Shown here one piece after another: positions 35,446 through 52,061 of a stretch of 64,000 bases of DNA (position 1 is its first letter; each line of letters starts with the position of its first letter). Made by a program: the position numbers and the translations under genes. The stretch is from Acidimicrobiales bacterium (GTDB lineage: Bacteria > Actinomycetota > Acidimicrobiia > Acidimicrobiales > SZUA-35). The stretch lies in NCBI GenBank assembly GCA_024638815.1, contig JAHEJM010000011.1, forward strand, positions 1 through 64,000. Direction: 5' to 3'. The notes beneath the pieces are model-generated. The model saw nothing but the letters and a program-made list of their open reading frames with translations. It was not told the origin of the DNA and searched no databases.

Positions 35446-37833
35446 TCACGCCGTGACCAGTTCCACCACCGAGCCGGTGGGTGACTTCGTGACCTCGAAC
35501 CGGGCCGGCATCCGCTCGGCCAGGTCGCGGACATGGGTGACGATGCCGATCATGCGTCCGGTGGCGGCCAACTCCTCGATGGCCGACGCCACCACGTCCA
35601 GGGTGGCCGGATCAAGGGTGCCGAAACCCTCGTCGAGGAACATGGACTCCAGACGGGGGGCATCGACCGGGGCCAGCTCGGCAATCGAGTCGGCCAAGGC
35701 CAAGGCCAGCGCAAGCGAGGCCAGGAAGGTCTCGCCTCCGGACAGGGTGCGGACGTCGCGGCGCTGGTCGGCGTTGTTGTGGTCGACGATCGCGAACTCC
35801 CGATCATCGACGGCCAGCGAGTACTGCCGGCCCGACAATTCGAGCAGCCAGACGGTGGCTCGGGCCACGATATCGTCCAGCGCTTCGTTGAGCAGCCACG
35901 CCTCGAAGCCGGTGGCCGACAGATGGCGACCAAGGGTGGCGTTGAGTTCCCGTTCCGCTCCGAGCTCGGCCACCCGGTCGGTCAGCCGCAGGCGCTCCTT
36001 GGCCCGGTTCTCGGCCCGCTCCAGCTCGGCCCTGGTTTCCGCCTCGGCCACGGCCACGTTCTCCACCAGGGTGGTTGGATCGGGCGGCAACCCGAGCTCG
36101 CCGGTGGCGGCCTTGACCCCATCCACCACCAGGGTCCTCTGTTCCACCAGCCCCTTGCCCTCGGCCGCCAGGTTGGCCCGGCGGGTGCTCAGCTCGTCAT
36201 GGGTGGAGGCGGCCCAGTCCACCAGACCCTGCCAGTTCTCGATCAGCGAGTCTTGGTTCGACTCCGGAGGATCGAGGGAAGCCAACCGATCCCGGCATCG
36301 GCTGAGCTCGCGGGCCCTGGTCGTGAGATCCTCGCCCAATCCCTCCATCTGCCGGCGGGCCCGCCCGGCGGCTTCCTCCGCCGATTTCATGGTCTGCGCC
36401 GCCGCTCGCCGCTCGGCTTCGACTTGGTCGACTTCGGCCAGTCGCCGAGCGAGGGCTGCTCCGTCGGCCTCACCATGGTCGGCCTCCAGCCGGGTCCGCT
36501 CGGCTTCGAGCCGTCGCTGCTCCTGGTCGGTCGCCGCCAGTTCGCCGTCCAACCGGGCCAGTTCCCGCTCGGCCATGGCCAGGGAACGAGCAGCCGACGT
36601 CGACTCGGCCTCGGCCTCGGCCAACTCGGCGTCGGCGTCGTGGTCGGGCACGGAGTCGACGGTCCGGAGACAGACCGGGCATGGCTCCCCCACCGCCAGC
36701 GCCGCTCGCCATGAGCCGGCGTCGGCCGCAAGCCGGGCGGTGGAACGCGCTTTTCCGGCCGCTTCAGCCACCTCGGTGGCGGCGGCGAGGGCGGCGGCAG
36801 CATCCTGACGGCGGTCCTTCCGACCGGCGCTGTCAGCCATGAGTTCGTCCAGTCGCGTCCCTACCGACACCAGCTGCTCGGCCCCGGTGATGGCGGCCAG
36901 CAAGGCGGCCCGGTCGGGAAGGTCGGTCACCCGCTGCTCCCATTCGTCCCGGCGGTCACGGGCTTCGGACAGAGCCTTGGTGGCGTGATCGAGTTCGTCG
37001 GTGGCGGCGGTGAGGGCCTGCTCGGCCTCGGTCAGGCCGGCCGGTACGGCCACCGCCGCCAGCAGCGCCAGAGACTGGTCGATCGCCTTGACCTGGCTCC
37101 GCACCGGATCGAGGGACGAGTCGATTGCGGCCAGCTCGTCCCGCCAGGTGCGGGCCGACCGTTTCAGATCCTTCAGGGTGGCGATGCGGGATTGCAGCTG
37201 TTCGATCTCGTGCTCGGCGACCTCGGGCAGCCGTTGCAGCTCCTGGGCCAGCGCCTCGCCTCGCTGGGCCGCCTGTTTGGCCTCTTCCCGGGCCACCGTG
37301 CCCATACGGGCGTAGACCTCCAGGTCGAGCAGGCGCCGCAGCAGGCGCTGGCGGCTGGCCGGTTCGTCTTTGAGGAATTGAGCGAAGTCGCCTTGGGGCA
37401 GGACCACCGTCCGGGTGAATTGGGTGAAGTCCAGGCCCAGCAGCTCGATCACGGCGGTGTCCACATCCCGCACCGTGCCGGCCAGTACCTCGCCGCCTCG
37501 TTCGGGGTCGTCCCGCTCCAGGCGAGCCTCGGTTTTCACCCCACCGGAACGGCGGCGCACGACCCTTGTCACGGTGTGGGGCCGATTCGCAACCTCGAAG
37601 TCGAAGCGGACCTTGGCCTCGTTGGCCAGCTGATGGATGACCGGGGCCACCACATTGGCATTGTCGTAGCGGGATACCGAGCCGTAAAGGGCGAAGGTGA
37701 CGGCGTCGATCAAGGTTGACTTGCCGGCGCCGGTGGGACCGGTGAAGGCCACCAGATCCAGACCGTCGAAGTCGAGTTCGGTCCGCTGCCGGAATGTGGC
37801 GAACCCCTCCAGCTCCAGCCGCACCGGTCTCAT
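35446..37833 (-). CDS. sbcC: Exonuclease SbcC (Rad50-type ATPase)
   Basis: 795 residues. The start at MRPVRLELEGF is chosen as the family start. Walker A GPTGAGKST lies at 32-40, the Q-loop at VVLPQGDFAQFL, long coiled coils at about 170-370 and 400-630, and the zinc hook CPVC at 385-388. Near the C-terminus are the signature LSGGETFLASLALALA and Walker B MFLDEGFGTLD. It forms a complex with SbcD that binds and trims DNA ends and hairpins. Its stop overlaps the upstream-most NurA start codon. Confidence 0.93.
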   Translation of the reverse strand: MRPVRLELEGFATFRQRTELDFDGLDLVAFTGPTGAGKSTLIDAVTFALYGSVSRYDNANVVAPVIHQLANEAKVRFDFEVANRPHTVTRVVRRRSGGVKTEARLERDDPERGGEVLAGTVRDVDTAVIELLGLDFTQFTRTVVLPQGDFAQFLKDEPASRQRLLRRLLDLEVYARMGTVAREEAKQAAQRGEALAQELQRLPEVAEHEIEQLQSRIATLKDLKRSARTWRDELAAIDSSLDPVRSQVKAIDQSLALLAAVAVPAGLTEAEQALTAATDELDHATKALSEARDRRDEWEQRVTDLPDRAALLAAITGAEQLVSVGTRLDELMADSAGRKDRRQDAAAALAAATEVAEAAGKARSTARLAADAGSWRAALAVGEPCPVCLRTVDSVPDHDADAELAEAEAESTSAARSLAMAERELARLDGELAATDQEQRRLEAERTRLEADHGEADGAALARRLAEVDQVEAERRAAAQTMKSAEEAAGRARRQMEGLGEDLTTRARELSRCRDRLASLDPPESNQDSLIENWQGLVDWAASTHDELSTRRANLAAEGKGLVEQRTLVVDGVKAATGELGLPPDPTTLVENVAVAEAETRAELERAENRAKERLRLTDRVAELGAERELNATLGRHLSATGFEAWLLNEALDDIVARATVWLLELSGRQYSLAVDDREFAIVDHNNADQRRDVRTLSGGETFLASLALALALADSIAELAPVDAPRLESMFLDEGFGTLDPATLDVVASAIEELAATGRMIGIVTHVRDLAERMPARFEVTKSPTGSVVELVTA

Positions 37834-37960
37834 TGCCGACCCCGGTGGGAGATCGTCGACGCCGAGCCGGGACCCGGACACTCGCCAGTCGATCGAATCC
37901 CTTCCATCGTTCGCAGTCTACTACCGACCCACACCTCGAATCACAGGTCTGTAGTTCCCG

Positions 37961-38058
37961 GCCGTTCTCTTGCCCTTTGGCGGGCTGCGGTTCCCTCGCC
38001 GTTGTCTTGCCCTTTGGCGGGCTGCGGTTCCTCGCCGTTCTCTTGCCCTTTGGCGGGG
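37961..38058. repeat. 36-37-bp tandem repeat upstream of sbcC
   Basis: Two full copies (37961-37997 and 37998-38033) and one partial copy (38034-38058) of a unit beginning GCCGTTCTCTTGCCCTTTGG. Copies differ by one or two bases. The 336-nt gap 37834-38169, between sbcC and the methyltransferase gene, has no convincing coding region, and this repeat is its main structure. The array could continue weakly to about 38090. Confidence 0.8.
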
Positions 38059-38169
38059 CTGGCGTCCCCCTCAAAGGAGCTTTGGCCGGTTGACGACCCT
38101 GCGAACGGGTCGCCACCCCGCCAAAGTGCTGGGTTTGGGGGTGAGTCAGGCGGCGGGGTGGATCGGTGC

Positions 38170-38928
38170 TCAACGCTCGAGCCGGTAGACCGAGACGTGG
38201 GACGGGGAATCGGCGGTGAACTCGGCGCCGGACCAGTCGCTGTGGCGGCTCTCCAGACCGAAGCCGGCCAGCCGCGCCATCAGGTCGAGTTCGGCCGGCC
38301 AGATATAGCGATGGGGGGAACGGAACAAGACTGCTTCGGCCGAGCGGTCGTCGAATCGGAAGTGGTGTGACACGACCCGCTGTTTGAGGGTGTCGTAGGT
38401 GTCGAGTCCGACATAGCCCGGCTCGACGGCGAACACTGCGGCCGAACGACCGGGTGCCGGCTCCGGTAGCCGGGGCACCCACAGCTCGACCACGAACCTG
38501 CCACCGGGGGCCAGATGGCGAGCTGCGTTCTCGAAGCAGCGGATCTGCTCCTCCTGGGTCAGCAGGTTCGAAATGGTGTTGAAGACCAGGTAGACCAGGA
38601 AGAACCGGCCCTCGATCCGAGCCGAGGCCATGTCACCGATGACCACGGGAACGGTCGACTCGTCGACCTTGGTCCGAAGCCGGTCGACCATGGCCGGGGA
38701 CAGCTCGATCCCCGACACCGCAAGGCCCCGCCCGACCAGGGGCACCGCCACCCGACCGGTACCGATGGCAAACTCCAGCACCGGGCCGCCGACGGCCAGC
38801 TCCACCAGACGATCGACGGTGGGCCCCAGCACCTCGTCGGCGAACATGCCTTCTCCCGGTGTGTCGTACCGGGCCGCCACCTCGGGACCCCACAGCTCAT
38901 CTCTATTCATCGACCCATTGTCGACCAC
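38170..38928 (-). CDS. Class I SAM-dependent methyltransferase
   Basis: 252 residues from GTG; an ATG 18 nt downstream (MNRDELWGP) is an equally good start. The SAM-binding motif I is VLEFAIGTGRVAVPL, motif II is GIELSPAMVDRL, and GDMASARIEG supplies the adenine contact. It belongs to the Methyltransf_25/11 type, acting on small molecules as a rule; substrate unknown. It lies between sbcC and the HxlR gene on the same strand, but nothing links it to DNA repair. Confidence 0.8.
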   Translation of the reverse strand: MVDNGSMNRDELWGPEVAARYDTPGEGMFADEVLGPTVDRLVELAVGGPVLEFAIGTGRVAVPLVGRGLAVSGIELSPAMVDRLRTKVDESTVPVVIGDMASARIEGRFFLVYLVFNTISNLLTQEEQIRCFENAARHLAPGGRFVVELWVPRLPEPAPGRSAAVFAVEPGYVGLDTYDTLKQRVVSHHFRFDDRSAEAVLFRSPHRYIWPAELDLMARLAGFGLESRHSDWSGAEFTADSPSHVSVYRLER

Positions 38929-38988
38929 CGGGCCGCGAGCGGTATCGAATTACACGATGCCGGTAGGATCGGCACGATCCGGGTGCAC

Positions 38989-39645
38989 TCAGAATGCCGA
39001 ATGACGGCGCATCGACTGGGGCATGCCGACACTGATGAGCAAGGTTTCGGCCGCCGAGCCATCACCGGTGACGACAAGATTCCCGCCGGCCACGGCGGTT
39101 GCCAAAGCCTCCGATCCAAGGGCCAAGGCATACAGGGTGCGGGAATCGGTTACCACGGTGGCGTCGGGAGACGTCGCCACGCCCAGAAGACCGCGGGCCC
39201 CGTCGGCGTCGAGGACCACGTGACAGACAAGATCCTCCAGATGGAGTTCGATGGTCCTCGGCTGCCGAGACGGATCCGGCTCGGCGTGCAGGATCATGGC
39301 CTGGACGCCGAGGCGCGGATTCGGCCGGTCGGGAAGTTCGTCCGGGTTCAGGTACTGGCCACCCCATCGCAACATCTCTCGGAGAACCGGTCGCAGTGAG
39401 CCCCCGCTCTCGGTGAGCCGATAACGACCATCGGATTGATGTTCGACCAGCGCAATCGACACCAGGCGACCAAGCCGGTCGGCCAGGACATCGGTGCTGA
39501 TCCCGGGCAACGCCCGATGGAGATCGGTGTAGCGCAGGGGACCCAGGTGGAGCTCCCGCACAACGAGCAGCATCCAACGGTCTCCCACGAGATCCAGTGT
39601 GCGGGCGATGGGACAGAACTGTTTGTGGGGGATTCGTTTCGGCAT
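38989..39645 (-). CDS. HxlR-family transcriptional regulator with C-terminal effector-like domain
   Basis: 218 residues starting MPKRIPHKQF. The HxlR winged helix is clear: FCPIARTLDLVGDRWMLLV, then RYTDLHRALPGIST and LVSIALVEHQ. HxlR proteins are usually about 110 residues; here about 100 extra residues with an SCP2-like look (ending GDGSAAETLL) may bind a lipid or other ligand. It is divergent from a membrane-protein gene across a 17-bp palindrome, so it probably regulates itself and that gene. Confidence 0.83.
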   Translation of the reverse strand: MPKRIPHKQFCPIARTLDLVGDRWMLLVVRELHLGPLRYTDLHRALPGISTDVLADRLGRLVSIALVEHQSDGRYRLTESGGSLRPVLREMLRWGGQYLNPDELPDRPNPRLGVQAMILHAEPDPSRQPRTIELHLEDLVCHVVLDADGARGLLGVATSPDATVVTDSRTLYALALGSEALATAVAGGNLVVTGDGSAAETLLISVGMPQSMRRHSAF

Positions 39646-39667
39646 GTCGGGAATGTCGGGTAGATCT

Positions 39668-39684
39668 ACTTGGTTTAACCAAGT
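39668..39684. promoter_or_regulatory. Palindromic operator between hxlR-like gene and membrane-protein gene
   Basis: ACTTGGTT-T-AACCAAGT, 8-bp perfect arms around one central base, in an AT-rich island. It is centred 31 nt from the HxlR start and 39 nt from the membrane-protein start, the expected place for an HxlR operator. Confidence 0.75.
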
Positions 39685-39714
39685 TATCACGATCATCAAC
39701 ACAAGGGGCAGACC

Positions 39715-40488
39715 ATGACACCGATGACACCGATGACAACAACGCCAAGCATGACAACGACGTCCGACGATCCGGCGGCCATTGGATCCTCCCGAACCCG
39801 GTTCGACGCCCTTCCCGGGGCGGGCACCTATCTCGTTCTCGCGGTATGGATGGGGCTGGTATCGATGGCCGTGTCGGCCGGGCTGTTCGAGGCCACCGAT
39901 GGTCCGCCGCCGGCGCTTGTCGTTGCGGTGGCCGGGCCCATCACCGCATTCGCCATTGCCTCTTCGACTTCCTCCAAGGTGAGGCGCTACGGCAGATCCC
40001 TCGATCTGCGTCTCGTCCTTGCCGCTCAGCTGTGGCGGGTGGTGGGTGCCGGATTCCTGTTGGCATGGGCGTTCGACCGACTGCCCGGTGAGTTCGCGGT
40101 ACCGGCCGGGCTCGGTGACATGGCCACAGGGGTTGCGGCTCTGGCCGTCAGCCTCTCACTTCTGCGAGGAACACTGACCCGCAGGCGGCTGTACGCCTTC
40201 ACTGCGCTGGGGCTGGGCGACTTCGCTGTCGCCGTCGTCACCGGCCTCATCATCCGCCCCATCGAGATGGATCTCTGGCCTCTCATCGTGTTCCCGACCG
40301 TGGCGGTGCCCTTCTTCGCCATGCTTCAGATCGTCACCTTGGTTCAGGCTGGGCACGACTGGGACGAACGCCTGGCCGTCTTGTCGGCCAATGCGAACCG
40401 AGCCGGACGGCTTCAGCCGACGTCGTCGAGCAGCTGGGCGAACCGGGCCTCGAGCTTGGGATCGGCCACGTTGGACTCCTCCAGATAG
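39715..40488 (+). CDS. Hypothetical membrane protein
   Basis: 257 residues. A Met/Thr-rich N-terminus (MTPMTPMTTTPSMTTT) precedes six hydrophobic segments at about 40-60, 68-88, 105-122, 132-152, 162-182 and 190-212. The stretch LPGEFAVPAGLGDMATG resembles a recurring pattern in uncharacterised membrane proteins, but I cannot name a family. The tail is hydrophilic. It is divergent from the HxlR regulator, which probably controls it. Its 3' end overlaps the 3' end of sbcD by 76 nt, so a shorter real C-terminus through frame error is possible. Confidence 0.7.
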   Translation: MTPMTPMTTTPSMTTTSDDPAAIGSSRTRFDALPGAGTYLVLAVWMGLVSMAVSAGLFEATDGPPPALVVAVAGPITAFAIASSTSSKVRRYGRSLDLRLVLAAQLWRVVGAGFLLAWAFDRLPGEFAVPAGLGDMATGVAALAVSLSLLRGTLTRRRLYAFTALGLGDFAVAVVTGLIIRPIEMDLWPLIVFPTVAVPFFAMLQIVTLVQAGHDWDERLAVLSANANRAGRLQPTSSSSWANRASSLGSATLDSSR

Positions 40489-41561
40489 TCGGCGAACAGC
40501 TCCCGGGGTGAACGGCCGGCCCGGGGCTTGGCCGATACCCGGTCCCGGAGGTCGACGGCCTCGACCCGGATGTCGACCACACCCGAACCGAGCAGATCCC
40601 GAACCTCGTCGGCCAGCCCGGTGCGGGACGGTTCGGTGATACGGACCCGGATCCAGGCGTCGCCCGGATCCCAGCCCCCATCCACCCGGGATCGCAGATC
40701 GGCCACAGAGCCGATGACCGTGATCAGGGGCCGGCCTTTGGTCAGTGGCACGGCCCGGACTTTGGCCGGCAGACCGGGGGCCAGTTCGACAACATTGACC
40801 TGCTTGTGTTGCTCCCTCTCACCGAAGTCGAGAGCCAGGGGCGAGCCGCAGTAGTGGATGGCGGTGGCCCCCAGCATCTGCTGAGGCCGGTGGAGATGGC
40901 CGAGGGCCACGTAGGCGGCGGTGGCCGGGAAATCCACGGCTGATACCCCGTACTCGTCCGCCAGGTGGGCCGCACGCTCCCCTCCCCCGGCGTCGCCGCC
41001 GTGCACGAAGGCGTGGGCCACGATGATGTTGACCCGGTCCGGCCCGAAGTCGGCGCACAGGGCGGCCATGACCCGCTGAAGCCGATCGGCATAGGTCTGG
41101 GCGTTCTCGAACCCGGCCTGGCTCATCAGTTCGACCGAACGCACGATGGCCCGCTGTGACACGAACGGCAGCAAGGCGATGTCGGCTTCCTGCCCCGACT
41201 CGGCGGCGATCACCACCCGACCACCGTCAGCCGGGCTGCGAGGACGGGTGGCCATGGTGATGCGACCCAGGGCCATGAGCGGGGTGATCGCCTCCAGCCT
41301 CCGGGCATTGTCATGATTACCCGAGACCGCCACCACCGGGGCCACGTCGGCCAGATCGAGCAGGGCCCGGGTCACGATGGCCTCGCTCTCGGCCGACGGC
41401 GCCGCCGTTTCGTACAGATCGCCGGCCACGGCGATGAGGTCCACCGACTCGTCGGCGGCGATGGTGGCGATCTCGGCCAGCACGGCTCGATGCTCATCGG
41501 CCCGTGAGTGGCCTCGAATGGCCTTTCCCACATGCCAATCGGAAGTGTGCAACAGCTTCAT
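40413..41561 (-). CDS. sbcD: Exonuclease SbcD (Mre11-type nuclease)
   Basis: 382 residues. All metallophosphatase motifs are present: Asp8-His10 in TSDWH, GDLYE, SGNHDN, HAFVHG and GHLHRP. A capping domain and a C-terminal SbcC-binding region follow. It is the Mn-dependent nuclease subunit of SbcCD, cutting hairpins and DNA ends. herA ends 13 nt upstream on the same strand, so they are co-transcribed. sbcC lies 2.6 kb further on rather than adjacent, with three unrelated genes between. Confidence 0.93.
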   Translation of the reverse strand: MKLLHTSDWHVGKAIRGHSRADEHRAVLAEIATIAADESVDLIAVAGDLYETAAPSAESEAIVTRALLDLADVAPVVAVSGNHDNARRLEAITPLMALGRITMATRPRSPADGGRVVIAAESGQEADIALLPFVSQRAIVRSVELMSQAGFENAQTYADRLQRVMAALCADFGPDRVNIIVAHAFVHGGDAGGGERAAHLADEYGVSAVDFPATAAYVALGHLHRPQQMLGATAIHYCGSPLALDFGEREQHKQVNVVELAPGLPAKVRAVPLTKGRPLITVIGSVADLRSRVDGGWDPGDAWIRVRITEPSRTGLADEVRDLLGSGVVDIRVEAVDLRDRVSAKPRAGRSPRELFADYLEESNVADPKLEARFAQLLDDVG

Positions 41562-41574
41562 CGGGCCCGCCTGG

Positions 41575-43413
41575 TCAGGTCAAACCGGAAAACGGATCAT
41601 CGACCGCCGCGGTGTCGGGATGGCCCGAATCTCCGCCGGTGCCCGAACCACTCCCGGTGGCCGAGCCGGCCCGGGCCTCGGCCGGGCGAGTGGCCCACGA
41701 CGGGAACGGGAACTCCACCAGCAACGGCACCGGCAACCGGGGCTGGGCAAGATACATGGAGCCGGGCTTGAGGATCATCGAGCGTTGGCGGGCCACCGCA
41801 GGCAGGAAACCGTATTCGTCCCGGCGGGCCTCAGCCGGATCGAGCCGACCGACAACCCGGATTGCGCTGTTGGCCACCACCCGGCGCTCGACCTCGCTCG
41901 CCGTCTGCTGGGCTCCGACCAGGATGATGCCCAGTGACCGTCCCCGCTCGGCCACGTCCAGCAGGATCTCCTTGATCGGGCTGGAGGAATCCCGGGGAGC
42001 ATACTTGTTGAGCTCGTCGAGGACCACGAACTGCAGAGGCCGGGCCACCCCGCTGCGTTCCTTGGCGTCGAAGGCCTGGCGGAGCACCACACCGACCACG
42101 AACCGCTTGGCCCGGTCATGCAGCCCGTGGATATCGACCACGGTGACCTGGTGGGCGTGGAGATCGGCGGCCAGGGTGGACGACTGGGCCACATCGGCCC
42201 GGATCAGGTGCTCGACATGGCGCTGGGCCGAGTGCAGTCGGCGAATGAAGGCATTGATGGTGCCCGACCCCACGGCCCGGCCGGCCCAGCGAGGATCGAC
42301 CGGTTCGTCCGGATCCCGGGGTTGGAGCTTGTCCTCGACGGCCTCGATCAGCCGGCCGAAGGTGCGGATGAGGCGGCCATCGAGACTGACGGCACCGTCG
42401 CCGACCTCGTCCAGCTTCGCCAACTGGGCCGTGACGGCCTGGACCACGATGGTGTACTGCTGACGCTCGTCCTCGGCGTCGGCGAACAGGTAGGGCAGCA
42501 ACTGCTGGCGGCAGAAGTCGGCGATCGTCCAGAAGAAGGGTGCCACCCCGAGGTTGCGGGAGCCGGTGGCCGGCGTGGCGTTGGGATCACCCTTGCGGGG
42601 CGGGGCCAGGATGCCGACGTCCCGGAATGGGCCCGGGTTCAGCCCCAGCGGCTTGTACCGAGCCGCCTGATCGTCGTCGAGGGCGGTGTTGGCATGGTCA
42701 AGGAACAGCAGATCCTCGCCCTTGACGTTGAAGATCAGAGCTTTGGTGTTGGCGGCTTCGGCCCCCAGCGCCCCGGAGTTGAACATCGAATACAGCAGGA
42801 AGGTTGCATACGAGGTTTTGGTGGCGACACCGGAGATTCCGGAGATGTTGACATGCGCACCCTTGGTGCCGTCGATGAAATCGACGTCGAGGAACACCGG
42901 CTCGTTGTTGCGGGAAAGCCCGGCCGGCAGGCGCCGATCCCGTGCCACGGTGTCGAACGACAGGGCCACGTCACGCTCGACGTCGGTGGCCACCCGCACC
43001 GGTGTGCCCGGCAGGGGCGGCAGCAGAATCTCCGGTTCGAACCGGGTGGGCTGGATGAGGGCGGCCTCGCTGATCTGGGCCGGCAACACACCGTCGGAGA
43101 TCAGGAACACATCGCTTTGGAAACTTGCCCCCTCGTGGCGGGCCCGGAGCTGGCTGACCACCCCATAGATGTGCACGCTCTGGCCGTCGGGCAGGCGACG
43201 CTCCAGGGCCACGACGTCGTCCAGCTGCAACGTCTGGCCCTCGGCCACCGCAACCCAGAACTCCAGCGGAGTGGCATCGTCGACACCGATGACCAAGCCG
43301 GCAGTAGGTCGGCCGCTGACCGTAGGTCGGCCGCTCACCGTAGGCCGGTCACCGGCAACGGGCCGGTCACGGAGATCCGGGAACGAGGGAACGGCGTCCG
43401 CCATGGCTTCCAA
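41575..43413 (-). CDS. HerA-family ATP-binding translocase
   Basis: 612 residues. The N-terminal HAS-barrel-like region (about 38-130) follows a Pro/Thr/Ser-rich repeat leader. The RecA-like core has GISGVATKTSYA in place of the usual GxxGSGKS P-loop, Walker B QFVVLDELNKYAP, and VGAQQTASEVERRVVANSAI as sensor and arginine-finger region. The C-terminus is a Gly/Ser/Asp-rich tail. HerA hexamers translocate DNA and stimulate NurA. sbcD lies 13 nt downstream. The missing Gly before the P-loop Lys is unusual but may be normal for this bacterial subgroup. A start 9 nt downstream is possible. Confidence 0.8.
   Translation of the reverse strand: MEAMADAVPSFPDLRDRPVAGDRPTVSGRPTVSGRPTAGLVIGVDDATPLEFWVAVAEGQTLQLDDVVALERRLPDGQSVHIYGVVSQLRARHEGASFQSDVFLISDGVLPAQISEAALIQPTRFEPEILLPPLPGTPVRVATDVERDVALSFDTVARDRRLPAGLSRNNEPVFLDVDFIDGTKGAHVNISGISGVATKTSYATFLLYSMFNSGALGAEAANTKALIFNVKGEDLLFLDHANTALDDDQAARYKPLGLNPGPFRDVGILAPPRKGDPNATPATGSRNLGVAPFFWTIADFCRQQLLPYLFADAEDERQQYTIVVQAVTAQLAKLDEVGDGAVSLDGRLIRTFGRLIEAVEDKLQPRDPDEPVDPRWAGRAVGSGTINAFIRRLHSAQRHVEHLIRADVAQSSTLAADLHAHQVTVVDIHGLHDRAKRFVVGVVLRQAFDAKERSGVARPLQFVVLDELNKYAPRDSSSPIKEILLDVAERGRSLGIILVGAQQTASEVERRVVANSAIRVVGRLDPAEARRDEYGFLPAVARQRSMILKPGSMYLAQPRLPVPLLVEFPFPSWATRPAEARAGSATGSGSGTGGDSGHPDTAAVDDPFSGLT
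43304..43353. repeat. 18-bp tandem repeat in the herA N-terminus
   Basis: Two full units (43304-43321 and 43322-43339) of GTAGGTCGGCCGCTGACC, differing at one base, and a partial third. In the protein they read SGRPTV repeats. Unit length is a multiple of three, so copy-number changes keep the frame. Confidence 0.7.
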
Positions 43414-45665: not shown

Positions 45666-46565
45666 CTACAGGGCCACGGTGCCCGAGACGCATCGCGCCA
45701 CGTGCCCACCGATCCAGATCTCACCGTCAGGTTCCTGGGTGACGAACACTCGCCCCGAACGACCAAGGGCCGTGCCCTGCGACACCAGATACGGGGGTGT
45801 GGCCCGACCGGTACCGATCAGCCATTGAGCCATTGAGGCGTTGAGGCTCCCTGTCACCGGATCTTCGATGGTGGCGCCCTTCGACGGGAAGAAGGCCCGG
45901 ATCTCGAAAGCCGGGTTCTCGGAATCGACGCCGACCCGTTCCCTCACCGTCGGGTACGGTCCGACGACGCCGAGATAGGACCCGACGACACCGATTCCGT
46001 CATCGACCGAGGCACCGTCGATGGCCAGCACCGTGTCGGCGTCGGACAGCAGCAGCCCGACCCAGCCCGGCCCGTTGTCGACCCAGGCGGCATCGACCAC
46101 CCGGCTCGGATCGAGCCCGAGCCGCCGAGCCAACCGTTCCACGTCAGGTGACGGTAGCGGGCCGGACCGAACCAGAGGCGGGGCCCGAAACGACAAGCGG
46201 TCACCGCCAATCCGTATCGGGACCAGACCGACCTCGCACTCCTGGATGATGACCTCACCATCGTCACGACCACCGTCGTCGCTGTGACCGATGTCGAGCC
46301 ACACCCGACAGGTTCCCAAGGTGGGATGGCCGGCGAACGGCAACTCGACCGACGGGGTGAAGATGCGAACCCGATAGTGGGCTCCGTTGGCTGCGCCCTG
46401 GGCCGACGGGGGCAGAAGAAAGGTGGTTTCGGACAGGTTCATCCAGTTGGCGAACCGCTGCATCTGTTCGGTGGTGGCGTGGTCGGCCCCCACCACCACC
46501 GCCAGAGGGTTGCCGTAGTAGGCGCGATCGGTGAACACGTCGACCAGTTGGAGGTGATGGTTCAT
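45666..46565 (-). CDS. PhzF-family isomerase/epimerase
   Basis: 299 residues starting MNHHLQLVDVFTD. The typical opening VDVFTDRAYYGNPLAVV is followed by NLSETTFLLPP with the catalytic Glu, then FTPSVELPFAGHPTLG and, in the second half, DPVTGSLNASMAQWL. The family is built of two diaminopimelate-epimerase-like lobes and isomerises small acids without cofactor. The real substrate is unknown, and no phenazine genes are present. It is divergent from the SDR gene. Confidence 0.87.
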   Translation of the reverse strand: MNHHLQLVDVFTDRAYYGNPLAVVVGADHATTEQMQRFANWMNLSETTFLLPPSAQGAANGAHYRVRIFTPSVELPFAGHPTLGTCRVWLDIGHSDDGGRDDGEVIIQECEVGLVPIRIGGDRLSFRAPPLVRSGPLPSPDVERLARRLGLDPSRVVDAAWVDNGPGWVGLLLSDADTVLAIDGASVDDGIGVVGSYLGVVGPYPTVRERVGVDSENPAFEIRAFFPSKGATIEDPVTGSLNASMAQWLIGTGRATPPYLVSQGTALGRSGRVFVTQEPDGEIWIGGHVARCVSGTVAL

Positions 46566-46631
46566 GGCGGCAACCGTATCCCACGGGCGACGGCCGGACG
46601 GGCGCAAACTAGCTCCGGTACCGTGGGCACG

Positions 46632-47450
46632 GTGACCACGACTCCCCAGCCGGCGCACCACTCGACCTGGAGCCAGCCCCTCACCGGACACAGGGAATTC
46701 GAATCCCATGTCACCGTGATCACCGGGGCCGGCCGGGGGATCGGGGCGGCAACGGCCATCTCCCTGGCCCGCCGAAACCCGGCCGGGCATATCGTCATCA
46801 ACTACACGTCCAACAGGGAAGCCGCACGTTCCGTGGCGGACCAGGTGACACAGCTGGGATCGCTAGCCTCCATCGTCCGAGCCGACATCGGCCGAGAGGG
46901 CGACGTGGTCGGGCTGTTCGATCAGGTCGACCGGATCGGCACCGTGACCGGCCTGGTCAACAACGCCGGCATCCTCTTCGAGTCGACGCCGTTACGGGAG
47001 TTCACCGTCGCCCGGCTCGAGGAGGTGTGGCGGGTCAACATCACCGGCTCGTTCCTCTGCGCCCGCGAAGCGGTACGGCGTATGGCGACGTCAACCGGAG
47101 GCCACGGCGGATCGATCGTGAACGTGTCGTCCCGAGCCAGTACGTTCGGCAGCCCCAACGAGTACATCGACTACGCGGCATCGAAGGGGGCGGTCGACAC
47201 CATGACCATCGGGCTGGCGACCGAGGTCGCGACCGAGGGGATTCGGGTCAATGCCGTGCGCCCCGGACTCATCCACACCGACATTCACGCCTCCGGGGGT
47301 CGACCCACCAGGGTCGATGATCTGGCCGCCGGTGTGCCGATGAAGCGGGGCGGCCGACCGGAGGAGGTGGCCAATCTCATCGTCTGGCTACTATCCGAGG
47401 AGGCATCGTATGTGACCGGAGCCCTGATCGACGTCGGAGGTGGTCGATGA
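46632..47450 (+). CDS. Short-chain dehydrogenase/reductase
   Basis: 272 residues from GTG (46632; another GTG at 46623). The cofactor motif is TGAGRGIG, the structural motif NNAG, and the catalytic Ser plus YAASK are present, with the Ser in NVSSRAS. The C-terminal GGRPEEVANLIVWLLS and YVTGALIDVGGGR are typical of FabG-like SDRs. It reduces or oxidises a carbonyl/alcohol with NAD(P)(H). Its stop overlaps the ABC ATPase start by 4 nt, tying it to the following two genes. Confidence 0.85.
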   Translation: MTTTPQPAHHSTWSQPLTGHREFESHVTVITGAGRGIGAATAISLARRNPAGHIVINYTSNREAARSVADQVTQLGSLASIVRADIGREGDVVGLFDQVDRIGTVTGLVNNAGILFESTPLREFTVARLEEVWRVNITGSFLCAREAVRRMATSTGGHGGSIVNVSSRASTFGSPNEYIDYAASKGAVDTMTIGLATEVATEGIRVNAVRPGLIHTDIHASGGRPTRVDDLAAGVPMKRGGRPEEVANLIVWLLSEEASYVTGALIDVGGGR

Positions 47451-48244
47451 CACAGCCTCTCAATGCCGCCATCGCCTTCGATGACGCCACCGTACGGTTC
47501 GATTCGGTGGTCGCCCTCGACCACATCACCAGCCAGGTGCAACCCGGCCGGTCGGTGGCTCTGATCGGGCCCAACGGATCGGGAAAGACCACCCTGCTCC
47601 GCCTGGTGGCCGGGCTGCTGGCCCCGTCCTCGGGGACGGTCTCGGTGCCGGCCAATGCCGTGGTCGGCTACGTGTCCCAGCACGCCAGCCAGCCGGCCTG
47701 GCTCCCCCTGACCGGGGCCGACGTCGTCCGCATGGGCCGTTACCGGGAACGGGGCCTACTCGGCCGGCTGACCGGCGACGACATGCGGGTCGTGGTCGAT
47801 GCCGCTCGGCGACTCGATGTCGAAGCGCTGCTCGATCGCCCCTACGGCGATCTGTCGGGAGGCCAGCGACAGCGGATCCGCCTGGCTCAAGCTCTGGCCC
47901 AGCAGCCCAACGTGCTGGCCCTGGACGAGCCGATCACCGGCCTCGACCTGCCCAGCCAGCAGATCATTCTTGATCTGATCGACGAGGAGACGAACCGGGG
48001 AACGACCGTCATCATCACCACCCACCACCTGGACGAGGCCCGGCACTGCGACCAGGTGCTGATGCTGGCCGGGCGGCTGGTGGCCGACGGTTCACCCGAT
48101 GACGTCCTGGTTCCGGCCCTACTACGGGCCACCTTCGGCGAACGACTTCTCGGCGATCATCGGGATCATGACCACGCCCACGCCATGCTTCTGGTTGATG
48201 ATCACGCCCATACCCACGCTCACAACCGACAAGGAGACCAATGA
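47447..48244 (+). CDS. Metal-type ABC transporter ATP-binding protein with His-rich tail
   Basis: 265 residues. Walker A GPNGSGKTT lies at 41-49, the Q-loop is YVSQHASQPAWLP, the signature LSGGQRQR, Walker B VLALDEPITGLD and the switch TTHHLDEA. The sequence type is that of Zn/Mn (ZnuC-like) ATPases, and the last 25 residues are rich in His (DHDHAHAM and DDHAHTHAH), which could bind zinc. No permease or binding-protein gene is adjacent. The start and stop both overlap neighbours by 4 nt; the downstream gene is a zinc enzyme. Confidence 0.83.
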   Translation: MTQPLNAAIAFDDATVRFDSVVALDHITSQVQPGRSVALIGPNGSGKTTLLRLVAGLLAPSSGTVSVPANAVVGYVSQHASQPAWLPLTGADVVRMGRYRERGLLGRLTGDDMRVVVDAARRLDVEALLDRPYGDLSGGQRQRIRLAQALAQQPNVLALDEPITGLDLPSQQIILDLIDEETNRGTTVIITTHHLDEARHCDQVLMLAGRLVADGSPDDVLVPALLRATFGERLLGDHRDHDHAHAMLLVDDHAHTHAHNRQGDQ

Positions 48245-48729
48245 GCGCCACGTCCGAGTTCGACGCCCACAATGCCACCTATGTCGACGGCTTCTCCCAT
48301 GGCGGTCTTCCTGCCGCCCCGTCCCGACAAGTCGCCGTCGTCACCTGCATGGATGCCCGAGTCGACATCTACCGCGCTCTCGGCCTGGAACCCGGCCAGG
48401 CCCACGTGATCCGCAACGCCGGCGGGGTGATCACCGATGACGTCATCCGATCGCTGGCCATCTCCCAGCAGAAGCTGGGTACTCGGGAGATCGTGGTCAT
48501 CCACCATACGAAGTGCGGCATGGAGAACATGGACGAGGCCGGTTTCGCCGACGAGCTGTCGGCCAAAACCGGCGTGCAACCTCCGTGGCCCGGGCTCGCC
48601 TTCGCCGATGTCTTCGAGGACACCCGTCAGTCGGTGGCCAGGCTGGCGGCCAGCGCCTTCATCGAGTACGACGGCGCCATCACCGGCTACGTCTACGATG
48701 TCGACACCGGCATGCTGGAGAAGGTCTGA
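48241..48729 (+). CDS. Beta-carbonic anhydrase
   Basis: 162 residues. The zinc ligands are Cys36 and the pair His89-Cys92 (CMDARVD and HHTKCGM), with the Asp38-Arg40 dyad between. It interconverts CO2 and bicarbonate. It is the short form typical of actinobacterial beta-CAs. Its start overlaps the His-rich ABC ATPase stop by 4 nt. A link to zinc supply is plausible. A PEP carboxylase gene, a bicarbonate user, lies 3.5 kb downstream. Confidence 0.9.
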   Translation: MSATSEFDAHNATYVDGFSHGGLPAAPSRQVAVVTCMDARVDIYRALGLEPGQAHVIRNAGGVITDDVIRSLAISQQKLGTREIVVIHHTKCGMENMDEAGFADELSAKTGVQPPWPGLAFADVFEDTRQSVARLAASAFIEYDGAITGYVYDVDTGMLEKV

Positions 48730-48776: not shown

Positions 48777-49577
48777 CTACTGCTGGGCGACCTGAAGCGC
48801 CACCTTCATCCGCTCGTCCCCCTCGCCGTAGCGCACGCCGGCAACGGGCGCGGCCTCGTTGTAGTCGAGTCCGACCGCGACCCGGATGTAGCGTTCATCG
48901 GCCGAGATGCCGTTGGCCACGTCGAAACCGACCCAGCCCAGGGCGTCGACATGAGCCTCGGCCCAGGCATGGCCTGCAGACTGATCGGGGCCGTCGTCGA
49001 GCAGCAGGTAGCCGCTGACGTAGCGGGCCGGGATGTCCATGGCCCGGGCCGCAGCGACGAAGATATGGGTGTGATCCTGGCAGACTCCTCGCCCCGCGGC
49101 CATGGCCTGCTCGGCCGTGGTCGTGGTCTCGGTCTCGCCTTGCTCGTAGTCGACCATGGCCCGGATGGTGAGCGACAGCTGATGCAGGCACTCCAGTGCG
49201 TCGTCATAGAGTCCGATCTGGCTGACCACACCCCTGATGACCGGTCCGGGCGCGGTCAGGTCGGTCGAGCGAAGGAAATACCAGAGCGGCAGCGGACCCC
49301 GATGGGGGCCGATGATGCCGTCGGGCCGGTGGGTCTCGATGACACCCGAGGCCTCGATCACCACTTCCTCGGCCCCCCGTTCGGTCCGAGCCAGGGTCAC
49401 GTGGTTGCCCAGATAGTCGACGTAGGAGAGCTGGGGCACACAGCCGCCATAGTCGATGCTCCACTCGATCACGGTCTGGGTCGGGCCCGGTATCGGAGTC
49501 AGCCGTAAACGTTGCAAACCGTAGCGGGGGGCCCGTTCGAAGCGGTACGACGTGTGATGTTCGACCCGGAGTCTCAC
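48777..49577 (-). CDS. Transglutaminase-like protein
   Basis: 266 residues. The bacterial transglutaminase N-terminal region (about 1-80; LRVEHHTSYRFE) is followed by the Cys/His/Asp core: GRGVCQDHTHIFVAAARA with the catalytic Cys, AGHAWAEAHV with the His, and WVGFDVANG with the Asp. No signal peptide is visible. It is the third gene of a conserved trio with the alpha-E and permuted ATP-grasp proteins. The trio is thought to build or process a peptide or protein amide bond, but its product is not established. Confidence 0.88.
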   Translation of the reverse strand: MRLRVEHHTSYRFERAPRYGLQRLRLTPIPGPTQTVIEWSIDYGGCVPQLSYVDYLGNHVTLARTERGAEEVVIEASGVIETHRPDGIIGPHRGPLPLWYFLRSTDLTAPGPVIRGVVSQIGLYDDALECLHQLSLTIRAMVDYEQGETETTTTAEQAMAAGRGVCQDHTHIFVAAARAMDIPARYVSGYLLLDDGPDQSAGHAWAEAHVDALGWVGFDVANGISADERYIRVAVGLDYNEAAPVAGVRYGEGDERMKVALQVAQQ

Positions 49578-49610
49578 CGTCGGGGACCTCCGGGCAGGCG
49601 ACGAGTGGAG

Positions 49611-50552
49611 CTAGACATGGAACCGGTAGTCCTTTTCGATCTGGGTGCCCAACGCCGAGTTCAGGGACGTGAAGTCCATGAGGAACTCGTGCAAACCGTG
49701 GTTGATGACGATGTCGACCGAGGCGGCGTCGATATCGGCTGTCAGTTTGTCGATCAGGTCGTGACACGGCATGCGCCGGCCGTAGTCGTCGGCGAGATAG
49801 CCGAGACTGGATCGGACCCGATCGACGCAGAAGGCGATGGAGCGCGGCATCCTGCGATCGAAGATCAGGAAGTCGATGATGCCCGACGGTTGGATGTCGC
49901 CCTGTTTCAGCCACAGATAGGACTGTCGGGCCGACACCGATCGAAGGATGACCTCCCATTGGACGTTGTCGAGCGGGCTACCGACATGGAACGCCGACGG
50001 CAGCAGCACGTAGTACTTGACGTCGAGGATACGGGCGGTCGAACCGGCCCGCTCGATGGAGGTACCGAGCCGGGTGAATGCGAAGGTGTCGTTGCGGAGC
50101 ATGGTGCCATGGAGCGAGCCGTGGACCAGGGCGCTCTGCCGGCGGATGAGTTCGAGCACATGCTGGATGTCCCGTTCCTTGACCGGCCGCTGGAGAACCG
50201 TTCCCAACTCGATCCAGGACTGGTTCATCGCCTCCCACACCTCACGGGTCAGAGCGGTGCGGACCATCCGAGCATTGTTGCGGGCCTGCTCGATCAGGGA
50301 CATGACGCTGTGGGAGTGATCGGGCTCGCGGAGCAGGAAGTTGACGACCTGGGCCGGTTCCAGCGTATTGTGGCGGTCCCGATAGGTCTCGAGTGCGCCG
50401 GCGGTGGCCAGAACCGACTGCCAGACGTCATCGCCGTCGGCCGACGGTGTCAGCGCAATGTTGAGACCGGCGTCGATGAGCCGACCGACATTGTCACTTC
50501 GCTCCAGGTACCGGAACATCCAGAAGAGGCCACCGGCCGTCTTGCCAAGCAT
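49611..50552 (-). CDS. Alpha-E domain protein (DUF403)
   Basis: 313 residues, almost entirely alpha-helical, starting MLGKTAGGLFWMFRYLERSD, the family opening. The conserved FWMFRYLERS and later YVLLPSAFHV and YLWLKQGDI segments fit the alpha-E domain. The biochemical role is unknown. It lies between the ATP-grasp and transglutaminase genes with about 33-nt gaps, and is presumably co-transcribed. Confidence 0.88.
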   Translation of the reverse strand: MLGKTAGGLFWMFRYLERSDNVGRLIDAGLNIALTPSADGDDVWQSVLATAGALETYRDRHNTLEPAQVVNFLLREPDHSHSVMSLIEQARNNARMVRTALTREVWEAMNQSWIELGTVLQRPVKERDIQHVLELIRRQSALVHGSLHGTMLRNDTFAFTRLGTSIERAGSTARILDVKYYVLLPSAFHVGSPLDNVQWEVILRSVSARQSYLWLKQGDIQPSGIIDFLIFDRRMPRSIAFCVDRVRSSLGYLADDYGRRMPCHDLIDKLTADIDAASVDIVINHGLHEFLMDFTSLNSALGTQIEKDYRFHV

Positions 50553-50585
50553 TACCGGACCCTGCGGAGGTCGGGGGGTGCGGCG

Positions 50586-52061
50586 CTAGACATCGGCCAA
50601 AACCCACGTGTCCTTGGTCCCACCGCCCTGGGACGAGTTGACGACCAGCGAACCCTTCTTGAGAGCGACCCTGGTCAGACCGCCCGGTGTGACGTTCACA
50701 TGGCCGGGCGACATCAGCACGAAGGGACGGAGATCCACGTGCCGGGGAGTCAAACCCCGTCGGGTGAAGATGGGAACGGTGGACAGGGCCAGAGTCGGTT
50801 GGGCGATGTAGTTCTCCGGGTTGGTCTTGAGTTTGCGGGCGAACCGCTCCAGCTCACGTTTGCTCGAGGTGGGACCGACCAGCATGCCGTAGCCCCCCGA
50901 CCCGTGGACCTCCTTGACCACCAGTTCGTGGAGATGATCGAGCACATAGCCGAGGGCATCGGGCTCCGAACATCGCCAGGTGGGTACGTTGTCGAGAATC
51001 GCTTTCTCCCCTGAGTAGAACTCGATGATCTCCGGCATGTAGGAGTAGACGGCTTTGTCGTCGGCGATGCCGGTGCCGGGGGCATTGGCCAGGGTGAGCC
51101 GACCGGCCCGGTAGACGTCGAAGATGCCGGGTACGCCGAGCATGGAGTCGGGTCGGAACGACAGCGGGTCGAGAAAGTCGTCATCAACCCGGCGGTAGAG
51201 CACGTCGATGGGCTTGTAGCCCTGGGTGGTGCGCATGGCCAACCGTCCATCGACGATTCGGAGATCGTCGCCCTCCACCAACTCGGCCCCCATCTGGTCG
51301 GCCAGGAACGAATGCTCGAAGTAGGCCGAGTTGTGCAGGCCCGGGGTCAGAACGGCCACGGTCGGATGGCCCTCGCAGCCGTCGGGGGCCGACGCCTGCA
51401 GCGAGTGGCGCAGCCGGCGGGGATAGTTGCGGACCGGCTCGATCTGGATGCGGGAGAACAGCTCGGGAAACATCTTCTGCATGGTCTCCCGGTTCTCCAG
51501 CATGTACGACACCCCCGACGGTGTTCGGGCATTGTCCTCCAGCACGTGGAACTGGTCGGGCCCGGTACGAACGATGTCGACACCGACGATGTGGGTGTAG
51601 ATGCCCCCGGGAGGGGTGAACCCGGCCATCTGAGGCAGGTAGGCCGAATTGCGAGCGATGACCGACACCGGAACACGACCGGCCCGAAGGATCTCGCCCC
51701 GGTTGTAGATGTCGTTGAGGAAGGCGTTGATGGCCAGCACGCGCTGTTCGATGCCCTTGACCAACCGGGTCCACTCCCGGGCCGAGATGATCCGGGGGAC
51801 GATGTCGAACGGGATCAGGCGCTCGCTGGCGTCAGGGTCGCCGTAGACGTTGAAGGTGATGCCGGTCGTTCGGAATGTGGCTTCGGCCTCGGCCGCCTTG
51901 GTCCGCAGCCGCTTCGGGTCCTCACCGTCGAACCACTGGAAATAGGAGTCGTAGCACGAGCGAACCGAGGCACCTCGACCGAACATCTCGTCGAAGGTTC
52001 CCTTGCTGTCGGCGTGGCCTCCGGCCTCGGCGTCGTAGATGTTGTCTCCCGGTTCTGACAC
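50586..52061 (-). CDS. Circularly permuted type 2 ATP-grasp protein
   Basis: 491 residues, beginning MSEPGDNIYD. Features of the permuted ATP-grasp family are TFNVYGDPDASERLIPFD, HIVGVDIVRTGPDQF, LEDNARTPSGVSYMLEN, and VVKEVHGSGGYGML with QPTLALSTVP near the C-terminus. It would ligate a carboxylate to an amine using ATP. It leads the trio with alpha-E and transglutaminase. The 172-nt gap upstream, back to the ppc stop, holds no gene, so the promoter probably lies there. Confidence 0.9.
   Translation of the reverse strand: MSEPGDNIYDAEAGGHADSKGTFDEMFGRGASVRSCYDSYFQWFDGEDPKRLRTKAAEAEATFRTTGITFNVYGDPDASERLIPFDIVPRIISAREWTRLVKGIEQRVLAINAFLNDIYNRGEILRAGRVPVSVIARNSAYLPQMAGFTPPGGIYTHIVGVDIVRTGPDQFHVLEDNARTPSGVSYMLENRETMQKMFPELFSRIQIEPVRNYPRRLRHSLQASAPDGCEGHPTVAVLTPGLHNSAYFEHSFLADQMGAELVEGDDLRIVDGRLAMRTTQGYKPIDVLYRRVDDDFLDPLSFRPDSMLGVPGIFDVYRAGRLTLANAPGTGIADDKAVYSYMPEIIEFYSGEKAILDNVPTWRCSEPDALGYVLDHLHELVVKEVHGSGGYGMLVGPTSSKRELERFARKLKTNPENYIAQPTLALSTVPIFTRRGLTPRHVDLRPFVLMSPGHVNVTPGGLTRVALKKGSLVVNSSQGGGTKDTWVLADV

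Follow-up and report, generated by a model that had tools for sequence, protein, structure and literature searches.

The 64,000-nucleotide stretch of DNA analysed here (the window; G+C content 66%, computed from the DNA) contains a row of three co-oriented genes coding for an SDR oxidoreductase, an ABC ATPase of the ZnuC/AztA type and a beta-carbonic anhydrase (CA). The coordinates of these genes, their junctions and their neighbours are listed in Table 1. The original prediction described them as an overlapping operon with no permease, and this description holds: both junctions (2/2) are four-nucleotide ATGA overlaps, and neither of the flanking minus-strand genes, PhzF and transglutaminase, is a permease gene. 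The ATPase is likely to be translated together with the CA, a zinc enzyme, from this operon. A later start for the SDR is possible, since most of the relatives' SDRs align only from about residue 24. The transglutaminase-like gene belongs to a consecutive row of transglutaminase, Alpha-E and circularly permuted ATP-grasp genes on the minus strand (48777-52061), which we take to be a known predicted peptide-modifying cluster.

Table 1. Features at and around the three-gene operon (positions in the window).
Feature	Coordinates	Strand	Remarks
PhzF-family gene, divergent neighbour	45666..46565	-	PF02567 7.8e-44; adjoins SDR gene in several congeners too
PhzF/SDR divergent intergenic stretch	46566..46631	.	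Without zinc-operator-like palindrome
SDR oxidoreductase gene, first of operon	46632..47450	+	GTG start; PF13561 1.2e-48; TGxxxGxG, NNAG, YxxxK; 4-nt overlap with ATPase gene
SDR/ATPase overlap ATGA	47447..47450	+	Read from sequence
ZnuC/AztA-type ABC ATPase gene, proposed znuC	47447..48244	+	NCBIfam AztA 5.5e-60
His-rich C-terminal tail of ATPase	48158..48244	+	8 His in residues 238-259
ATPase/CA overlap ATGA	48241..48244	+	Read from sequence
Beta-carbonic anhydrase (CA) gene, Rv1284-like	48241..48729	+	PF00484 3.4e-14; PDB 1ylk E 8.7e-49
Transglutaminase-like gene, convergent neighbour	48777..49577	-	PF01841 1.2e-20; adjoins CA gene in G007 too

The ATPase had been assigned to the zinc/manganese type, and its best family matches agree: among the NCBIfam models AztA ranks first (5.5e-60) and MntA next (4.5e-52), with the ZnuC model at 1.1e-35. 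The curated equivalog cut-offs are not reached (202 against 220 bits for AztA, 123 against 306 for ZnuC), and the name ZnuC is therefore used here on the grounds of clade and gene context. The ATPase motifs are intact, with Walker A GPNGSGKT at position 41, LSGGQ at 136, Walker B VLALDEP at 156 and the H-loop TTHH at 191. The His-rich tail noted previously is present, and 26 of 30 ATPase orthologues, including those encoded next to a permease, have at least four His among their 40 C-terminal residues. Judged from these sequences, the tail is a property of the ATPase clade with no sign of a special link to the CA; its role is perhaps to buffer cytosolic zinc at the importer.

The CA aligns over its full length (residues 3-161) with Mycobacterium tuberculosis Rv1284 (beta-CA 1), with the CxDxR motif at 36 and HxxC at 89. 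A CA of this kind and the G+C content of 66% suggest that the DNA comes from an actinobacterium. Its gene directly follows that of the SDR, with no ATPase gene in between, in three congeners (G006, G008 and G010), and in G007 it overlaps another gene, a shikimate kinase by eye. These arrangements bear on the earlier suggestion that the ATPase is, by way of its His-rich tail, a zinc store or metallochaperone for the CA encoded on the same message. The likely co-translation with a zinc enzyme and the eight His of the tail are in keeping with such a role, but the tail extends to orthologues encoded beside permeases, the ABC catalytic motifs are intact, and the CA gene changes partners among relatives. 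We consider this role very unlikely, and the clade-wide tail and the partner changes of the CA rule it out as a leading idea.

The complete gene order has no counterpart. Contiguous SDR-ATPase-CA genes are found in none of the other 98 related genomes (99 with its own), and a conserved three-gene unit was rejected for this reason; the nearest arrangement is that of G007, where the three genes lie on one contig and one strand with about 3.7 kb separating ATPase from CA. Parts of the order do recur, as SDR-znuC and SDR-CA pairs in congeners, and a four-base SDR-znuC overlap is common to the window (ATGA), G007 (ATGA) and G003 (GTGA). The arrangement in the window looks like a znuC inserted at an SDR/CA junction, a direction of change that we infer. 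SDR genes whose products are 56-58% identical to that of the window lie directly behind znuB in G028 and G020, which belong to another genus (L160 5171-5908, L162 1051-1779). The position in G028 and G020 would fit an SDR that is part of the zinc system, but most of the other best SDR matches in relatives are away from znu genes.

It had also been suggested that an ATPase with no membrane partner at its own locus could serve a remote permease, and a search for orphan ZnuB and ZnuA genes found a single pair of the kind expected. The whole genome contains one ZnuA (1.1e-65) and one strong ABC-3 permease (6.4e-65), and their genes are adjacent on contig C31 (C31:17287-19205). No ATPase gene was found between or beside them, and the pair is followed by an NAD-synthetase-like gene (by eye) on the opposite strand. 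The other ABC-3 match on C31 is weak (21.2 bits) and overlaps the reading frame of a FecCD-like permease, which is accompanied by ATPase and binding-protein genes of its own. No other ZnuC-like ATPase is encoded in the genome, the closest one besides that of the window being only 35% identical to it, and znuC, znuAB and a Zur-like gene lie on three different contigs. The genome thus has an importer without a motor and a motor without an importer, although the assembly (4.7 Mb, 227 contigs) is 90.8% complete and a second znuC could lie in a gap.

The number of candidate partners also bears on whether the ATPase serves a different transporter, or several, with ZnuAB not its chief client. Remote ATPases shared between transporters exist, FhuC of Staphylococcus aureus being described as the remote ATPase of iron siderophore and haem importers (PMC10147376), and ABC matches are numerous in this genome (106 rows). 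By analogy with the cross-use of ATPases described there, the C31 permease could itself be powered by another ATPase. However, there is only one strong ABC-3 permease in the genome, in 28 genomes a member of the ATPase's clade is encoded next to a permease of that type, and the FecCD-type system on C31 comes with a separate ATPase, so that a different chief client seems unlikely.

The distribution of the two genes among relatives ties the ATPase to this permease. The sample comprised 99 related genomes, its own included, with the ATPase counted at E <= 1e-45 and the permease at E <= 4e-64. The ATPase is present in 48 genomes, the permease in 52 and both in 46; that is, the permease accompanies the ATPase in 46 of 48 genomes and occurs in 6 of the 51 without it (Fisher p 4.6e-19, a figure inflated by shared ancestry, since kinship is uncorrected, and obtained with thresholds set after viewing the tables). 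G003 and G012 have the ATPase without that permease, and G027, G031, G036, G037, G049 and G077 have the permease without an ATPase at the threshold; in G027, a cut ATPase gene lies beside the permease gene at a contig end.

Of the 46 genomes with both, 28 have the two genes on a single contig and no more than 2.3 kb apart, and several of these 28 loci also include zur and znuA; in complete clusters (e.g. G019, G071, G079 and G096), zur (recognized by PF01475) and znuC adjoin znuA-znuB. In the other 18 genomes, its own included, the genes are on different contigs. A permease gene next to that of the ATPase in relatives had been named as evidence against the original prediction, and it is found in the 28 genomes. 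Together with the unmatched gene order, this refutes a conserved three-gene functional unit, but it does not refute the idea of a remote permease.

Four of the 18 were set aside: G015 and G016 because of contig breaks within the znu cluster, G020 because another copy of the ATPase gene adjoins its SDR-znuB genes, and G093 because both genes are near contig ends. The remaining 14 (its own genome, G001, G005, G007, G014, G017, G023, G034, G061, G072, G081, G090, G091 and G094) are firm separations, in which the ATPase gene, the permease gene or both lie 5 kb or more inside a contig that does not contain the partner gene. It is extremely unlikely that the separation is an artefact of assembly or binning. 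Most of the genomes are sets of contigs, G015, G016 and G020 reflect contig breaks or duplicates and G093 is undecided, but in the genome studied here no contig end comes closer than about 18 kb to either the ATPase or the ZnuB gene, and the ATPase or permease gene is at least 5 kb inside a contig in the 13 others. In G020, two similar but non-identical znuC 3′ ends occur on two contigs (L161 end, L162 start), each followed by a near-identical intergenic stretch with repeated ACCGGTGGA units, a case of duplication or of strain mixture.

The detached genes also differ in their upstream regions. Palindromes of the form TGAGAAnnnTTCTCA are present upstream of znu genes in relatives, and sites of this kind are putative targets of Zur, whose regulons and boxes have been reviewed (PMC6103462). 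Scanning the 4.7 Mb genome for TGAGAANNNTTCTCA with up to one mismatch yields a single site, which is a perfect palindrome located at the start of znuA on C31, and the reversed pattern, used as a control, has 0 matches in the genome. On an operator matrix built from nine sites at relatives' znu loci, with the window and the genome's own znuA left out, this site scores 25.4; high scores at the relatives' own znu loci are partly circular because the matrix was built from them. In contrast, there is no such operator at the SDR-znuC-CA operon, where the best score in 1.2 kb around the promoter is 6.7, nor elsewhere in the 64-kb window, where the best is 12.8 and shuffled 12-kb stretches reach up to 17.0. 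The search for Zur sites that had been proposed thus places a zinc-operator-like site at znuA and none at the three-gene operon. The Zur-like protein, encoded on contig C190, is 42% identical to the product of a relative's zur that adjoins znuC. At one locus (L003 7287-7302) the likely ATG of znuA shares bases with an operator-like palindrome, which means that either the transcript is leaderless or the true start is further in.

A similar difference is seen among the relatives. Sites scoring at least 17 within -300 to +60 of znuC are found at 11 of 14 attached genes and at 2 of 14 detached ones (p 0.0018, with the qualifications that the relatives are not independent, that some of the attached loci contributed to the matrix and that one low score is due to a run of N). 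The attached loci scanned are 14 of the 28: G071, G028, G018, G033, G035, G079, G004, G019, G096, G089, G027, G008, G015 and G016, the last two having been reassigned from separate to attached and the ATPase gene of G027 being cut by a contig end. Of the detached genes, those of G091 and G017 (L167 6192, L172 6382) each have a strong operator, and that of G081 is borderline with a score of 15.0. The promoter of an SDR-led operon falls outside the -300 limit, and the scan therefore covered whole loci in the case of G003, G007 and the window. A zinc operator seems to be missing at most detached znuC genes, while znuAB in several of the same genomes has one.

We propose that the ATPase is the ZnuC of the only ZnuABC-type importer found in this genome, its gene having moved to an unrelated operon, and we put the probability of this reading at roughly 85%. 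That the ATPase is a relocated ZnuC is very probable given the orphan znuAB pair, the co-occurrence in 46 genomes, the closeness of the genes in 28 and their firm separation in 14; the suggestion of a remote permease is therefore well supported, with the partner pair carrying a zinc-operator-like site. According to this proposal, znuC would have left the zinc-uptake locus and become translationally coupled behind an SDR gene and, in this genome, also ahead of a beta-carbonic anhydrase gene. ZnuC, made from the window, would join ZnuB in trans to form the importer, with ZnuA delivering Zn(II) to it. With znuA-znuB under a putative zinc-responsive (Zur) operator and znuC without one, regulation by zinc would extend to the permease and the binding protein and not to the motor. 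Control probably differs between these two parts; the assembly of ZnuB with ZnuC, zinc as the substrate, Zur binding and zinc-independent expression of znuC are all predicted from sequence.

Other detached znuC genes have various neighbours, among them SbcCD/HerA-like genes, an acyl-CoA-dehydrogenase-like gene (by eye) and a dioxygenase gene. HerA/SbcCD-like genes adjoin the detached znuC in G023 and G034 and lie further out from it, within the same region, in G005, G007 and the window (HerA and SbcC are names given here, the HerA-like protein having no Pfam match; SbcD was identified by Pfam). In the window the SbcC/SbcD-like and HerA-like cluster occupies 35455-43299 on the minus strand, and its relatives are found near detached znuC in other genera too. 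In the ATPase tree, the window's protein groups with those of G003, G007 and G005 (support 95/89), whereas ZnuB of the same genome groups with that of G001 (support 92/86). Both trees are poorly resolved and lend no support to the two genes having descended together. The ATPase tree does not support the detached state having arisen once, since it requires four changes, with G020, G093 and G003 coded as split (G020 is attached, and G093 and G003 are undecided).

This variety raises the question of whether the separation has any regulatory meaning. It may be that the ATPase is a detached ZnuC but that its separation is accidental, any promoter sufficing and the CA and SDR being bystanders, and to this we give slightly less than an even chance; it is compatible with the split importer proposed here except for its regulatory part. 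The differing neighbours of detached znuC genes are in keeping with such an accident, as are the strong operators retained in G017 and G091. On the other side, detachment recurs in 14 genomes that belong to several genera, G003 and G007 preserve the SDR-znuC overlap, and operators are present at 2 of 14 detached as compared with 11 of 14 attached genes. A more specific version of the split importer, which we regard as doubtful, is that the carbonic-anhydrase operon sets a zinc-independent level of motor production while the binding protein and permease are zinc-repressed; the supply of motor would then be matched to the need of a zinc enzyme, with zinc setting only the number of channels using the motor.

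A split importer accounts for the orphan ATPase and names its probable partner, and the case shows how the motor gene of an importer can come to lie away from its locus and without its zinc operator. Annotation based on operons would label the zinc importer of this genome incomplete. The 14 detached and 28 attached genes also offer a natural comparison for asking whether an importer ATPase must be regulated together with its permease. We found no description of a detached znuC or of a znuC-CA operon in the titles and abstract openings of the open-access literature.

Three known systems invite comparison. The CA itself resembles Rv1284-like beta-carbonic anhydrases in its full-length match to PDB 1ylk and its CxDxR and HxxC motifs, and is different only in having an unusual gene neighbour. 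The importer corresponds to ZnuABC/AztABC in that an ATPase, an ABC-3 permease and a ZnuA binding protein are all encoded in the genome and AztA is the curated family that the ATPase matches best. The classical cluster is kept in most of the relatives with both genes, in several of them with zur; here, in contrast, znuC is apart from znuA-znuB and zur, with no operator found at its operon. As described in PMC10147376, S. aureus FhuC is likewise an ATPase encoded away from permease genes that have no ATPase of their own, but it serves several permeases from a transporter operon of its own, whereas here there is one permease and the host operon is unrelated. What is less usual than a remote ATPase is its detachment in 14 genomes, the loss of the operator at most of the motor genes and the coupling to unrelated enzymes.
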